Shown: piece by piece, positions 15,202-25,260 of the stretch
Layout: the number at the start of each line of letters is the position of its first letter
Position numbering within the stretch: the first letter of the stretch is position 1
From: Saxibacter everestensis
GTDB taxonomy: Bacteria > Actinomycetota > Actinomycetes > Actinomycetales > Brevibacteriaceae
NCBI RefSeq assembly: GCF_025787225.1
Contig: NZ_CP090958.1
Span: forward strand, 2,590,550 to 2,654,549
Length of the DNA: 64,000 bases
Direction of reading: 5' to 3'
The notes under the pieces: generated by a model
What the model was told of the DNA's origin: nothing
Database searches by the model: none
What the model saw: the letters and a program-made list of their open reading frames with translations, nothing else
Made by a program: the position numbers and the translations under genes

Positions 15202-18681
<3,480 letters not shown>

Positions 18682-18856
18682 GAGAGTCCTTCCAGGGCTT
18701 AAGAACTTCATTTTGCTTCGGCCGAATTGTTGCCGCAAAGTAGGCGCAAAAAAGCGACGGCTGTGCGGTTATTAGGCCTGTACGTGTTCGCACGCGGCCC
18801 ATGACACTAAGCCCACCGCTATATGAAGGCTGGAAGTTATGGGAGCGCAAAGATTA

Positions 18857-18963: not shown

Positions 18964-20175
18964 CTACCCTCGGTAGGACTGCAGGCCCTCGATCAGGTCA
19001 CCGTCGATGGCGCCGAAGAGCGTCTTTCCCCAGACGGTTTTCTGCGACGCATACGGCTCGTCGCCATCGTAGAGCCAGTCGGGCTCCTGCCGTGACCTCA
19101 CCGCGCTTGCGCAGTCATTGCACGCCGGCAGGCTAACTTTGCGGCCGGAATCGAGGCGGTAGTCGGCCCGGGACTCTGCTTCGCGGTGCAAGGGGTTGAA
19201 GACGCAGAGCGCGAGCGGCCCCGGCCCGCTCTTCCGGCCGGCGATCTTGCGGCCCTTCTTCTGCCGCACCGACTGGGTTGCATCGTCCGCGGCCTGTTCG
19301 GCGGAGAACAGGTCGCGCTCAGCAACCCGGATCAGCACCAGGGCCCCGGCTAGGTCGACGGTTCTGCTCGCCGCGTCGTCGACGAGCCGCGAGGCGAGGC
19401 TGTACGCATCCAGGCCGTGCACGACGGTCTCCAGAGTGTCCTCGGAGAGCCCCTGGGTCTTGAGCGCCTCAAGTCGCGCGGCCACGTGCAGCGTGTTCTG
19501 CCCGACCTGTTCGCGCAGTTCCTTGCGTTGCAGCGAACGTACGCTCGTGACCAGGGCCGAAGGCAGCCGGTATCTGCGCTTGGCCCGGTTTCTGCGCAGC
19601 GCCGCAATGCCCATGCCCGCAGCGGCGACCACAATGGCGATGCCCAGTACCCCGAGCATGACCATGCCGGCATCTGAAATCACCGGTTCACTAGGGGAGG
19701 TTTCGGCGCGCGGCTGCACAACCCCTGGCTGCATACCGCCGTCACGAAGCGCCTGCGCCTCCTGCTCTGTCAAGGTTTTCGGGTTGTTCAGCTGCTCGAG
19801 AAGCAGATTCAGCTGTTTGGCCGGTGAGCTGTCCTGAAATCCGTCGTCCCGGGCGAGCAGGATCTGGTCGTAGATAACGGATGACGTTTCGTTGTCGGTT
19901 TCGACGGCGTATGTGTTGGACCTGCCGGGCTGCAGCAGAATGTAGAGGCCGTCCTGCTGCAGGTTCGCATGCACGAAGGTGAGCAGGTCTGCGCTGTCGG
20001 CGTCTGCATCGTTCAGCGCGACGACGTACACCGGGTAGTCCAGCGACTCGCTTTTCGACCGGGCCGAGGTCAGCGCTTTGGCACCGAATGTCTCTTCGGC
20101 CCCGGGGGCGAGGTAGAAGTTGTCCGTCTTCAGCGCCTGGGCTATCTGCGCGCCCTGTTCAAGGATGCTGCTCAT
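18964..20175 (-). CDS. Membrane protein with C-terminal CxFNPxH-CxxC motif (third gene of operon)
   Basis: 403 residues, no recognised family. The N-terminal 150 residues form an alpha/beta domain with a YPVYVVALNDAD strand and repeated acidic helices. One membrane segment follows (GMVMLGVLGIAIVVAAAGMG, about residues 168-187), then a basic RRNRAKRRYR that places the C-terminal half in the cytoplasm and the N-terminal half outside. The C-terminal half is helical and ends with CVFNPLH...CNDC, a likely zinc site. The first gene of this operon has the same motif (CFFDPRH...CRGC), so the two are diverged paralogues. Its ATG overlaps the preceding stop (ATGA). It lies just upstream of the rpoB promoter. 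Function unknown. Confidence 0.75.
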   Translation of the reverse strand: MSSILEQGAQIAQALKTDNFYLAPGAEETFGAKALTSARSKSESLDYPVYVVALNDADADSADLLTFVHANLQQDGLYILLQPGRSNTYAVETDNETSSVIYDQILLARDDGFQDSSPAKQLNLLLEQLNNPKTLTEQEAQALRDGGMQPGVVQPRAETSPSEPVISDAGMVMLGVLGIAIVVAAAGMGIAALRRNRAKRRYRLPSALVTSVRSLQRKELREQVGQNTLHVAARLEALKTQGLSEDTLETVVHGLDAYSLASRLVDDAASRTVDLAGALVLIRVAERDLFSAEQAADDATQSVRQKKGRKIAGRKSGPGPLALCVFNPLHREAESRADYRLDSGRKVSLPACNDCASAVRSRQEPDWLYDGDEPYASQKTVWGKTLFGAIDGDLIEGLQSYRG

Positions 20176-20933
20176 TCTTTGACCTGCTTTCTAAAACCTC
20201 GCACCACTCCGATAACCAGGCCGGCGGGGACAAGAGCGAACAGCACCCCGATCACAAAGTCGAGCACGACGGTTTTGATCGGATATCCGAATATCCGTGG
20301 TCCCGGGTCGTCCTCTTCATTAAGCGTTGGCTTGTCCGGGTTCGGGTTCGCGGGAACTCCCTCGCTCAGCGTCGCGTTCTCGATTGCATCGATGGTGAGG
20401 GCGAGCTTCCGATTGCCGTTTTCTGAATAGAAGTCGGTATCGCTCAGCTTCGCCTCGTCTCCTTCTCGATACTCGACGTCCAGCCCGCTCGCTTCGAAAC
20501 TGGTGTCCGAGGCGTTGTGCACGACAACGACAGCATCTTTGCCCAACTCGTAGCCGATCCGGCGGGCGAGCAAATCGTTGTCCCCCTCGGACTCGTCGTA
20601 GATTTCGGTGGGCACCACCGCGACATAGATCGGCGCGTCACCGCTCAGCAGTTGGTCGCTGAGGTCTGCTTCGCCGGCTTCGGTGAGCATGATCCGCTGG
20701 GTGGGATCCACGTAGACACGATCGTCTCTCAGCTCGTCGACGATCCTTTCGATCCGGGTGGTGTCGTACTCCGGCGGCCAGTCTTCCAGCAGCTCCTGCC
20801 GTTCCTCGAGGTACTCCTTCCTCGGGGTATCAGGAAAGGTCGTCAACAGATAGCCGCTAACGCCGGTGCCCACCCCGAGACCGACCAGGGTCCAGGCCGC
20901 AACCACGGCCACCTTGCCTCCTACGCCTTTCAT
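20172..20933 (-). CDS. Two-TM membrane protein with extracytoplasmic alpha/beta domain (second gene of operon)
   Basis: 253 residues from ATG 20933, which overlaps the preceding stop (ATGA). Longer open frame upstream is antisense-type sequence. An N-terminal membrane anchor (VAVVAAWTLVGLGVGTGVSG) is followed by about 180 residues with an APIYVAVVPTEIYDESEGD strand. That pattern resembles TPM-type domains and the N-domains of both neighbours. A second membrane helix lies near the C-terminus (VVLDFVIGVLFALVPAGLVI), and the tail RGFRKQVKE is basic. Both termini should be cytoplasmic, with the middle outside. It lacks the CxF motif of its neighbours. Function unknown; probable partner of the flanking proteins. 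Confidence 0.7.
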   Translation of the reverse strand: MKGVGGKVAVVAAWTLVGLGVGTGVSGYLLTTFPDTPRKEYLEERQELLEDWPPEYDTTRIERIVDELRDDRVYVDPTQRIMLTEAGEADLSDQLLSGDAPIYVAVVPTEIYDESEGDNDLLARRIGYELGKDAVVVVHNASDTSFEASGLDVEYREGDEAKLSDTDFYSENGNRKLALTIDAIENATLSEGVPANPNPDKPTLNEEDDPGPRIFGYPIKTVVLDFVIGVLFALVPAGLVIGVVRGFRKQVKE

Positions 20934-22207
20934 CGCGAAACCCTTGTCTGATCGAGGATCGCGTCCTCGAGCGGTCGCATGCTGCCAAAGCCACAGTCGG
21001 CGTAGACGTTTCCAGAGGCGGCGAAATATGGCTGGGAACGTCGTCGAGCGAACAGCGATCGCCTGGCAACCATGAGTGCGGCCGGCTCGCCGCCATTCCT
21101 CAGCGCTGTCCGGCAGCCGCGGCACACCGGAACCGTGAGCCGGGTTCGGCCCATCCGCCAGACGCCGTCGCCAGAGGAATCCGAGTGTCGAGGGTCGAAG
21201 AAGCATGACCGCGCCGGCTCGCCGGGTTTCGGGGCTTTCGTGCCTCGTCTACCCTTCCCGCTTGGGGCAATCACGGCGGCACGTCGCTGCAGCAGGGACA
21301 TGGCCAGGAGGTCGAGCGGGTCAGTTTCCGAATCGAACTCACCGCCGGCCCGGCGCAACACGACCTCGGCGGCACGGCCGATCCGATCGATGGTCTCGAC
21401 CTGGTCGTCGGACAAACTCTCTGGCCAGGGGCCATCCACGAGCGAGCGAAGCGCCGATTCCGCTGACCTGGCTTTACTGATCAACTCCGGCGTCACACTG
21501 ATCGGCGTCGCTGCCTTCGCTGCCTTATCGCGGCGAACGCAGACCCACACCAGGGCCGCACCGAAGGCAACCCCGGTCGTGATCACACCGGGCACACCAG
21601 GATCGCCGTCATCAGGTAGGTAATAATCCAGTTCATCCAGCCGGCCGGGTGTCTTCTCGTCCGCTGGCTTCCGGTCTTCATGCCGAGGTCGGGGCGGCGC
21701 ATCCTCGCCGCGCAGATATGCCAGAAGGGCGTCGGCAGCGTATGAGGTGGTCGCAGCGACGGAGTCGGTGTCCAGCTCGTCGCGGACGTCGGGCCCGGAG
21801 AGTTCGCCGCTCTCGCCGTCGGCGTCGACGACGAAAGCGACCGACCGCCAGTTGCCGAATCCGCTCTGTACCTCTGTGAAGATGTAGCTGACCGGGCCTT
21901 CTTCGACATCGAACATGTCGCGCACTGCCCCGGCCAGGATCTGTTCCCTGGCGGAATAGTTCAGGTGGGTCTCCCCGGTTCTGCCGGCAAGCTGCGGCAA
22001 AACCGCGACGTAGCAGCGCCTGCCTTCGCCAACGACACGGGCGATCGCCGCTATGATCCGGTCCTGCTGACCGTCGGTTATCGCACCGGCGACGTTCTGG
22101 TCGACGAAGAGCGGCGACTCTTGCCAGCCCGGTGCGATGAGGCTGCGCAGGGCACGGACAGCTCGCGCTCTGGTCTCGGGAGAGTTATCGGAATCGTCGG
22201 TGCTCAC
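20930..22207 (-). CDS. Membrane protein with C-terminal CxFDPxH-CxxC motif (first gene of operon)
   Basis: About 425 residues. I start at GTG 22207, preceded by GGAGAGAG; a TTG 12 bp upstream is the alternative. The N-terminal domain (about residues 1-190) has a CYVAVLPQLAGRTGE strand like those in the two downstream genes. A single membrane segment (PGVITTGVAFGAALVWVCV) precedes basic residues, predicting N-out/C-in topology without a signal peptide. The cytoplasmic part ends with CFFDPRH, about 20 residues, then CRGC, a probable zinc site shared with the third gene. It is separated from rplL by a terminator and probably has its own promoter. Function unknown. Confidence 0.75.
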   Translation of the reverse strand: MSTDDSDNSPETRARAVRALRSLIAPGWQESPLFVDQNVAGAITDGQQDRIIAAIARVVGEGRRCYVAVLPQLAGRTGETHLNYSAREQILAGAVRDMFDVEEGPVSYIFTEVQSGFGNWRSVAFVVDADGESGELSGPDVRDELDTDSVAATTSYAADALLAYLRGEDAPPRPRHEDRKPADEKTPGRLDELDYYLPDDGDPGVPGVITTGVAFGAALVWVCVRRDKAAKAATPISVTPELISKARSAESALRSLVDGPWPESLSDDQVETIDRIGRAAEVVLRRAGGEFDSETDPLDLLAMSLLQRRAAVIAPSGKGRRGTKAPKPGEPARSCFFDPRHSDSSGDGVWRMGRTRLTVPVCRGCRTALRNGGEPAALMVARRSLFARRRSQPYFAASGNVYADCGFGSMRPLEDAILDQTRVSR

Positions 22208-22330
22208 GGCTCTCTCCAAATGGAGGGTGACCGCAGGAGGTGCACGCGGAGAGGGGGAGCATGTCTACCTTGCCTGGGGACGGGTGCAGCAAGACTGCGA
22301 TTCGAGGAAGACTCTAGCAAATCGACACGC

Positions 22331-22365
22331 AAAAGGCCGATCCGCATGAAGCGGATCGGCCTTTT
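22331..22365 (-). terminator. rplJL terminator
   Basis: Perfect 15-bp stem (22331-22345 with 22351-22365, loop ATGAA) flanked by A4/T4, about 50 bp after the rplL stop. It separates rplJL from the unknown operon and from rpoBC. Confidence 0.85.
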
Positions 22366-22416
22366 GCCGGTCACCATCCCGGGATCCGGGATCCCAGAAG
22401 TGGCGACTTAAGGGAA

Positions 22417-22803
22417 CTACTTGAGGGTAACCGAAGCGCCGGCGCCTTCGAGCTGTGCCTTTGCCTTCTCGGCGGTGTCCTTGTCGACGCCTTCAAGAAC
22501 GGCCTTAGGAGCACCATCGACCAGGTCTTTGGCTTCCTTCAGACCCAGGGAGGTCAGCGCGCGAACTTCCTTAATAACCGGAACCTTCTTCTCGCCGGCT
22601 GCTTCGAGAACGACGTCGAATTCGGTCTTCTCTTCCTCAACAGCAGCTTCGCCGCCGCCTGCAGCGGCCGGACCGGCAACTGCGACAGGAGCAGCAGCGG
22701 TTACTTCGAAGACCTCTTCGAACTTCTTGACGAACTCGGAGAGCTCAATCAGGGAGAGTTCCTTGAAGCCGTCGAGCAGCTCGTCAGTTGTGAGCTTCGC
22801 CAT
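22417..22803 (-). CDS. rplL: 50S ribosomal protein L7/L12
   Basis: Stalk protein that recruits translation GTPases. 128 residues: N-terminal dimerisation helices ([16 protein letters not shown]), an Ala/Gly hinge, and the C-terminal factor-binding domain with [20 protein letters not shown]. It follows rplJ by 98 bp and ends in a strong terminator. Confidence 0.98.
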
Positions 22804-24102: not shown

Positions 24103-25260
24103 TCACCCGCTCTCCTGCAGCCGCTTCTGCCATTCGCCTTCAACGTCCTCCGGCCGGTATCCCTGGTCCAGATTGACCCTGAGCATGTATGAATTCCCCG
24201 CCGCATTCCAGGTGTGGATCCGCTTCAGCCCCGGATTCTCGGTCAGCACTCGAGCCAGGTTGACCGCCTTGACCAATTGGCCGAGCTTGTTCCCACGATG
24301 CCCCTTGATCACAAGCGTGTCGCCCTGAAACGCGAACTCGGTGCTGCGTGCGACGGTCTCGATGGCAGTGAACGCAGCCAGGAGCCCGCTCTGAACATGC
24401 AGCGCCGCGGTGACATAGGAAGTTCGGCCGAAAGCGAGTGTCCTATCCTCTTCGTCCCGGATCCGGGCGCCATCCCAGTCCTCTTCCTCAATTTCCAATC
24501 CAGCCATCGGTGCATCCGTCGACATCTTTTGCCGCAGTTTGGCGAACTGCTCCAGCCACTCGTCGGGACAGCGATTCTTCCAGGTGACCAGTTGATAGGT
24601 CTCCGGAACGTTCGCGCGCTGCTCGGCAGCACTGAGCAGGGCGGAATTGTGCTCCGAGTCGATCGGCGCGGGCAGCACGCTGTGCCGGCCGACTTGCTCA
24701 AGCTGGAAGCCATTCCTGACCGCAAATCGGGTCGGCGCGTCATCCGGGGGCACCCCGCCGATGCCCGTAGGGGGGCGAAGGATAGCTTCCGCCTCGAGGC
24801 CAGAGTCATCGTCACCGCGTGTGCTCGGCGCATCCCTGTGATCGCTCCAGGCCAGAATCGTCGTCCGGCCAGCATCGCGTGCCAGCTCCTCCGCTGCCGA
24901 ATAGAGCGCGGTTCCCACACCACGGCCGCGGCACTCCGGGCGGACGGCGACGTGAACCTCGGCAAGATGCAGATTGTCGTGTCGTGGCAGGTCGATCGAC
25001 GCCCAACCAAGCACGTCCTCGCGGCGCGGCGCGCCGGCCAGGCCGGCGACCGCGGCAAGCCTGATCTTTTTGTAGTATTTCTGACTGCGCAGCGAGACCA
25101 GGACTTCCTCCGCGGAGGGGCAGAGGTCGGTGTACCCACGCTCCTGCTTCGCGATCGCGAACTCGACATCGACACCGCCGTGGAATAGCTCCGCCTCGGG
25201 TGAGTCCAGTGATTCGGGTGGGGATATCTCCAGCACGCGTATTTCGGTTTGGCTCGTCAT
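24103..25260 (-). CDS. GNAT-family N-acetyltransferase, probably two-domain
   Basis: 385 residues from ATG 25260. The N-terminal half has a clear acetyl-CoA loop: AEVHVAVRPECRGRGVGTAL (about residues 98-117) with the R-G-x-G-x-G/A pattern, preceded by GWASIDLP. The C-terminal half has a second, weaker GNAT fold with KGHRGNKLGQLVKAVNLARV and NAAGNSYMLRVNLDQGY, as in MshD-like and other double-GNAT actinobacterial proteins. Substrate unknown. It is a lone gene, divergent from the DedA gene. Confidence 0.85.
   Translation of the reverse strand: MTSQTEIRVLEISPPESLDSPEAELFHGGVDVEFAIAKQERGYTDLCPSAEEVLVSLRSQKYYKKIRLAAVAGLAGAPRREDVLGWASIDLPRHDNLHLAEVHVAVRPECRGRGVGTALYSAAEELARDAGRTTILAWSDHRDAPSTRGDDDSGLEAEAILRPPTGIGGVPPDDAPTRFAVRNGFQLEQVGRHSVLPAPIDSEHNSALLSAAEQRANVPETYQLVTWKNRCPDEWLEQFAKLRQKMSTDAPMAGLEIEEEDWDGARIRDEEDRTLAFGRTSYVTAALHVQSGLLAAFTAIETVARSTEFAFQGDTLVIKGHRGNKLGQLVKAVNLARVLTENPGLKRIHTWNAAGNSYMLRVNLDQGYRPEDVEGEWQKRLQESG

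Follow-up and report, generated by a model that had tools for sequence, protein, structure and literature searches.

Proteins of the TPM-domain family (Pfam PF04536), among them TLP18.3, Psb32, BA41, Cg2496 and PRSAF1, recur at sites where membrane complexes are built or repaired. According to PMC11237479, TPM proteins act together with PspA, and a chaperone-like function during the assembly of membrane-linked complexes has been suggested for them; phosphatase or ATPase activity is reported for some members, but such a role is disputed. Two further papers locate PRSAF1 where the bc1 and aa3 complexes of mycobacteria meet (PMC7719681) and report that a TPM protein of Campylobacter supports cbb3 oxidase activity (PMC8267372). 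Here, we analyzed three neighboring genes, designated A, B and C, which lie between rplL and rpoB in a 64,000-nucleotide stretch of Saxibacter everestensis DNA (assembly GCF_025787225.1, contig NZ_CP090958.1, positions 2,590,550 to 2,654,549, forward strand), hereafter the window. The outer domains of A and C are akin in predicted fold to the PF04536 proteins, from which the trio differs by the absence of any match at the Pfam threshold, by three different TPM domains per operon and by a zinc-type module placed after the transmembrane helix (TM). Another close counterpart, the ydjFGHL operon of Bacillus subtilis, encodes the PspA-partner TPM protein YdjH and, as described in PMC11237479, shares with the trio the TPM domain, the membrane association and, for the wider family of the trio, the genomic link to PspA; zinc ribbons are also encoded in it. 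In ydjFGHL, the zinc ribbons reside on other proteins, whereas in the trio TPM domain, TM and zinc-type module are joined in one chain, which is encoded far from pspA.

20930..22207, minus strand: gene A, 425 amino acids; TPM-like domain, one TM, helical linker and zinc-type module (open reading frame, ORF, and alignment of A proteins)
20172..20933, minus strand: gene B, 253 amino acids; TM, TPM-like domain and TM, no zinc-type module (ORF and alignment of B proteins)
18964..20175, minus strand: gene C, 403 amino acids; TPM-like domain, one TM, three-helix domain and zinc-type module (ORF and alignment of C proteins)

Gene A starts with GTG, preceded by GGAGAG, and both the A/B and the B/C junctions are ATGA overlaps; the position, strand and coupling of the three genes had been given correctly by an earlier annotation of the window made from its letters (the sequence-only reading). 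Third-position GC of the trio genes (0.74-0.81) is as expected in a window of 63% GC, and their coding composition is normal.

We propose, with a probability of about 0.5, that the trio encodes a heteromeric complex which spans the membrane and acts in envelope stress or in assembly. According to this model, each of A, B and C would expose a domain of TPM fold outside the cell membrane, and A and C would carry a treble-clef-like zinc module in the cytoplasm by way of one membrane helix and a helical linker. The TPM domains may attach to protein complexes of the membrane or of exported proteins, or guide them, while these are being assembled or are damaged, in the manner established or suggested for TLP18.3, Psb32 and PRSAF1. 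Linker and zinc modules may recruit an inner partner; by family context, the first candidate would be PspA or a different component of the envelope-stress machinery. The operon itself would be a lineage-specific, dispensable amplification of an actinobacterial family often associated with pspA, placed behind the rplL hairpin. The genes, their homology, conservation, coupling, fusions and constant inventory are established at the level of sequence; the partnership with PspA and the function of the trio we infer from published work on TPM proteins and from genomic context. If the model is true, TPM domain, one membrane helix and an inner metal-type module would form a direct physical link to the cytoplasm that can be tested, and the coupled and fused gene forms would predict the composition of the complex. 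The domains on which this model is built are as follows.

21695..22156, minus strand: TPM-like domain of A, residues 18-171 (TPM-like profile of the family, with this domain itself in the seed; best Z of the model 9.6)
20370..20768, minus strand: TPM-like domain of B, residues 56-188 (profile-profile matches to C and A)
19765..20157, minus strand: TPM-like domain of C, residues 7-137 (best Z of the model 11.1, against TPM structures)
21539..21595, minus strand: membrane helix of A, residues 205-223 (hydropathy; net charge -6 before and +3 after)
19606..19662, minus strand: membrane helix of C, residues 172-190 (hydropathy; net charge -3 before and +7 after)
21113..21205, minus strand: C-x3-P-x-H ... 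C-x2-C module of A, residues 335-365 (present in all 22 extracted A proteins)
19111..19206, minus strand: C-x3-P-x-H ... C-x2-C module of C, residues 324-355 (present in all 27 extracted C proteins)

None of A, B and C matched any Pfam family at E-values up to 10, the NCBIfam matches of C were all sub-threshold and were taken as chance, and a scan of the three proteins for PspM (NF047839) gave no match. Profile-profile comparison relates the three proteins to one another: A and C match along their length (E 9.6e-12), and B matches the outer domains of C (E 3.5e-13) and of A (E 4.5e-9), so that the alpha/beta domain which the sequence-only reading had seen in all three is indeed common to them. 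Structure predictions cover A and C. The AlphaFold2 model of C, built from 26 aligned sequences (mean pLDDT 73.5), finds its best matches for the N-terminal domain in 2kpt (Z 11.1, rmsd 3.1, 114 aligned residues), 5anp (Z 11.0) and 2kw7 (Z 10.7), with 8c7i (Psb32; Z 10.0), 3ptj (TLP18.3; Z 9.5) and 7tbr completing the TPM rows, which span Z 9.5-11.1 over 114-130 residues; helical-bundle matches to residues 216-312 are interspersed among them. The model of A, predicted separately from 21 sequences and of lower confidence (mean pLDDT 54.7), retrieves the same families, with 3ptj and 5anp (both Z 9.6), 7tbr (Z 8.6) and 8c7i (Z 8.1) at the top and TPM proteins in all of the first eight rows, two of which are the TPM protein BA42. 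The outer alpha/beta domain of A and C is thus predicted to adopt the TPM fold, which corrects the earlier description of the operon as unknown.

The model of C also matches chain J of two structures of the mycobacterial respiratory supercomplex (6adq, Z 8.8; 8hcr, Z 8.6), which we take to be PRSAF1. This similarity, together with the reported place of PRSAF1 between bc1 and aa3 and the support that a TPM protein lends to cbb3 oxidase, would suit a protein that helps to build or equip a single membrane machine, for example a PRSAF1-like factor of the bcc:aa3 supercomplex, rather than a role in general envelope stress. We consider this unlikely, as a common fold does not show a function and no respiratory gene was recognized among the neighbors listed for the trio and its relatives.

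The motif shared by A and C reads C335-F-F-D-P-R-H341 ... C362-x-x-C365 in A and C324-V-F-N-P-L-H330 ... C352-x-x-C355 in C, the second half being P-x-C-x2-C (V-P-V-C in A, L-P-A-C in C); B lacks it. Its conservation, which the sequence-only reading had left to be checked in homologs, holds for all 22 A and 27 C proteins extracted from our named loci (L numbers; G numbers denote genomes), with one exception seen, the C copy of genome G002. These counts refer to intact loci, broken or partial ones being set aside (A and B of L105, L117 and L121-L125; C of L117 and L121). Both models place a Cys/His pair, two strands and a helix with the Cys pair at its start in succession, in C as a hairpin (335-351) followed by a helix (353-360). 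This order of elements fits a treble clef in both models, the confidence of the A model being moderate and no fold match spanning this part; from the treble-clef order of ligands, strands and helix, the modules of A and C may bind zinc. As for G002, two extra zinc-module genes adjoin its trio (L031 11122-11856 and 11843-12976), the first of which encodes a membrane helix and a zinc-type module without a TPM domain, and its C copy retains the TPM domain; TPM and zinc parts seem to be split between genes in this genome.

Hydropathy gives a single helix in A and C. Both in the window and across the trio loci, acidic charge precedes this helix and basic charge follows it, which would put the TPM domains outside the cell and the zinc modules in the cytoplasm. 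In the window, as in most loci, the B protein begins and ends with a helix. A hydrophobic N-terminal segment is found in the longer ORFs of G002 and in most Streptomyces-like proteins.

A search of 99 relatives detected gene C in 49, each a member of the window's own family, which 29 named loci identify as the Brevibacterium family and of which 49 of 60 genomes thus carry C. Scored from the positions of rplL and rpoB in these 60 genomes, C lies between the two on the same strand in 36, the broken copies of G034 and G043 included, which confirms the expected conservation of the trio at this site in related genomes. In nine further genomes, C is located 1.5-18.5 kb from rplL and outside the rplL-rpoB gap, showing that this place is not essential, and in four its placement could not be checked owing to contig breaks. 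C is absent from 10 of the 60 genomes, and G057 matched none of rplL, rpoB and C. A-profile matches accompany C in 47 of the 49 genomes, and the remaining two, G014 and G028, carry a tblastn match to the A zinc module upstream of C (L042 and L041). Among the 11 genomes without C, seven lack an A match, G024 retains A as a broken remnant, and all that G015, G052 and G057 show is a weak zinc-module match, adjoining pspA in the first two. Since A nearly always accompanies C, the parts of the trio are rarely found alone, and the independent occurrence that would have spoken against a unit was not the rule in the 60 genomes. The coupling is likewise widespread, with 4-nt overlaps at 15 of 22 A/B and 19 of 22 B/C junctions.

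Maximum-likelihood analysis of the C-terminal part, with 53 rows, places A in one clade (support 99/92), C in another (77/97) and the pspA-linked paralogs in a third (100/100), so that the duplication predates the split of the genera of the family. These comparisons support A, B and C as diverged paralogs that probably originated by duplication, as the sequence-only reading had suggested. One might alternatively regard the trio as a neutral or decaying family expansion that is tolerated at this insertion site. G034, G043, G024 and Brevibacterium iodinum (L117) harbor remnants or broken copies, and several small genomes lack the trio altogether, which is consistent with such decay; the intact motifs, gene order and coupling over three genera are hard to explain without selection and render it highly improbable. 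The broken or remnant trios (L117, from B. iodinum ATCC 49514, L040, L043 and L154) contain A and C genes that are stop-interrupted or shortened, while their neighbors are intact and relatives hold intact copies.

Beyond the Brevibacterium family, the C profile matches 25 of 296 genomes of the phylum, that of the window among them. The distant members examined are mostly single genes, with a signal peptide, a TPM-like domain, a membrane helix, a linker, a CFFDPxHG ... VPxC module and a Gly-rich tail, and in many the last Cys is replaced by Asp. Such single-gene proteins (L083, L085, L089 and others) resemble the trio in TPM-like domain, TM, helical linker and module, and differ from it in consisting of one gene instead of three, in the Gly-rich tail and in having mostly Cys-x-x-Asp rather than Cys-x-x-Cys at the last site. 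The members scanned carry no Pfam or NCBIfam name; the succession of TPM domain, membrane helix and zinc module is an unnamed actinobacterial architecture, of which the trio is a three-subunit branch.

A PspA gene lies within 2 kb of the family match in 8 of 24 distant genomes (G142, G174, G177, G209, G219, G261, G324 and G346); several of the others consist of short contigs, and three of the PspA neighbors were verified with Pfam. In the Brevibacterium family, PspA is present in 25 of 25 genomes searched, and a weak A-profile match occurs at most 4 kb from pspA in 10 of these 25. Direct inspection added G000, G001 and G008, one of the three being the genome of the window, and was negative for G002 and G003; ten genomes lay outside this inspection. 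As 9 of the 12 regions taken were centered on PspA and at least G005, G009, G010 and G024 had a family match that was seen beforehand, we give 10 of 25 as the count. The pspA-near paralog of this family is shorter, comprising membrane helix, linker, zinc-type module and Gly-rich tail, and in the genome of the window it is found 5.5 kb from pspA (L145 2333-3220). That PspA locus (L145, contig 1, 468000-486000) also contains genes for PspAA, an M48 peptidase, PspAB, an HtrA-like protease, a WXG100 protein, an SAF protein and a T2SSE ATPase, and GroEL is near 8 of the 11 PspA loci taken. PspM (NF047839) was considered as an identity for the pspA-linked paralogs and dropped, since the L145 paralog alone matched it, at 16.9 bits against a cut-off of 80, and none of eight others did. 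In extracts of PMC6767563, sco2168-2167 is listed as a sigmaE target in S. coelicolor; sco2167 is at most a candidate member of the present family.

Further evidence on composition comes from fused forms. A and B are one ORF in three loci of the family (L045, L047 and L048). A search with the longer G265 protein matched 22 of 61 Streptomyces-like genomes, mostly weakly and to the single-gene form, and gave long matches in six (G265, G503, G496, G466, G479 and G475), each with two neighboring genes. These Streptomyces-like operons (L081 and L175-L179) differ from the trio in having two genes, another domain order and a place other than rplL-rpoB. Each of the six encodes, over its two genes, three TPM-like domains plus two zinc-type modules, the inventory of A, B and C; the start of the second gene in G475 is provisional. 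That two architectures hold one inventory argues for a fixed composition, and A, B and C most likely form one heteromeric membrane complex; the multisubunit complex of the sequence-only reading thereby gains indirect support from the fusions and the shared inventory, both of them features of the genes. A one-to-one pairing of the Streptomyces TPM domains with A, B and C was dropped, for C gives the highest score with the first TPM of ORF1 but B does so with the others, all scores being low, and inventory alone is claimed; the tree position of the ORF1 zinc module within the C clade, on a long branch, was not used. We regard it as tentative, and somewhat short of an even chance, that these operons represent an undescribed actinobacterial complex with a constant set of subunit domains, three of them TPM domains outside the membrane and two of them zinc modules inside, encoded by a coupled trio in Brevibacteriaceae and by two genes in some Streptomyces, in which an outer-face chaperone is tied to the cytoplasmic envelope-stress response.

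The neighborhoods of the two-gene operons raise the question whether the complex is instead an accessory of type VII or pilus-type secretion, with three TPM domains lining the export path and the zinc modules docking to a cytoplasmic ATPase. A WXG100 gene (L175 1270-1632) and a sub-threshold type VII secretion-signal protein (L176 8763-10043) are found there, sub-threshold SAF or RcpC matches occur in genes near the relatives of L175 and L177, and WXG100, SAF and T2SSE ATPase genes mark the pspA locus of the window's genome. This link is, however, confined to two of the five two-gene loci with neighbors listed, part of which were searched, and none was recognized at the trio; secretion is therefore quite unlikely in our view.

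Several observations weigh against the envelope-stress or assembly complex that we favor. The sequences of A, B and C do not reach the gathering score of PF04536, the best relative giving an E-value of 0.24 and 11.9 bits where 22.1 would be required; no TPM chain was retrieved when PDB sequences were searched with the profile of C, and the best of Foldseek's own E-values was a weak 0.042. In the genome of the window, ~2.1 Mb separate the trio from pspA, direct inspection of the PspA loci of G002 and G003 revealed no family member, and none was found at the five Streptomyces-like PspA loci examined. The C copy of G002 lacks the three cysteines and keeps PxH alone. A signal peptide is absent from A (22 of 22) and from the trio C proteins, that of the window included, which weighs on the export of the TPM side. 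By the charge pattern, which fits, the alpha/beta domain would lie on the opposite side of the membrane from the motif, as the sequence-only reading had it. Finally, some species of the family have lost the trio or hold broken copies of it, indicating that it is dispensable there.

The surroundings of the trio bear on a last explanation and comprise the following features.

22417..22803, minus strand: rplL, upstream neighbor of the trio (searched in 60 genomes)
15202..18738, minus strand: rpoB, longest ORF with a provisional start codon, downstream neighbor of the trio (searched in 60 genomes)
22329..22367, minus strand: strong hairpin with a 17-bp stem, directly 3' of rplL, terminator- or attenuator-like (fold z-score -6.5)

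The layout of an outer domain, one TM and an inner zinc-type module is plausible for a sensor, and the trio adjoins rpoB; the TPM domains could accordingly serve as sensors, with the zinc modules influencing transcription, for instance through the RNA polymerase made next door. Such a transmembrane signaling device is very unlikely. The motif of zinc anti-sigma factors is H-x3-C-x2-C, from which C-x5-H ... C-x2-C differs, rpoB was not recognized next to any of the listed distant relatives, and genomes that lack the trio also have a wide rplL-rpoB gap of varying size. A transcriptional or translational role deduced from the position was not adopted as the first reading either, as the distance from rplL to the rpoB match ranges from 1.1 to 9.1 kb in genomes of the family, trio or no trio, and the hairpin intervenes. 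A comparable hairpin follows rplL in 22 of 22 named loci examined (23 of 23 with the window). It sits where an rplL-rpoB attenuator would be expected and divides the trio from rplJL; the terminator scan did not list it, its T run being too short for the rule of the scan, and a promoter scan at the locus found none. The placement of the trio is a local insertion behind the conserved rplL hairpin and does not in itself point to a role with the ribosome or RNA polymerase.

A plasmid search with C gave no match, and one with a Streptomyces-type relative matched six plasmid records. No paper on such a trio was among the literature matches listed for Brevibacterium rplL/rpoB, and a search on Brevibacterium TPM domains, rplL-rpoB and envelope complexes returned nothing, each statement being limited to that search. 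In the window, a GNAT acetyltransferase gene (24103-25260) lies between rplJ and rplA, and a GNAT relative is located between C and rpoB in most Brevibacterium loci; this difference in placement is a local rearrangement.

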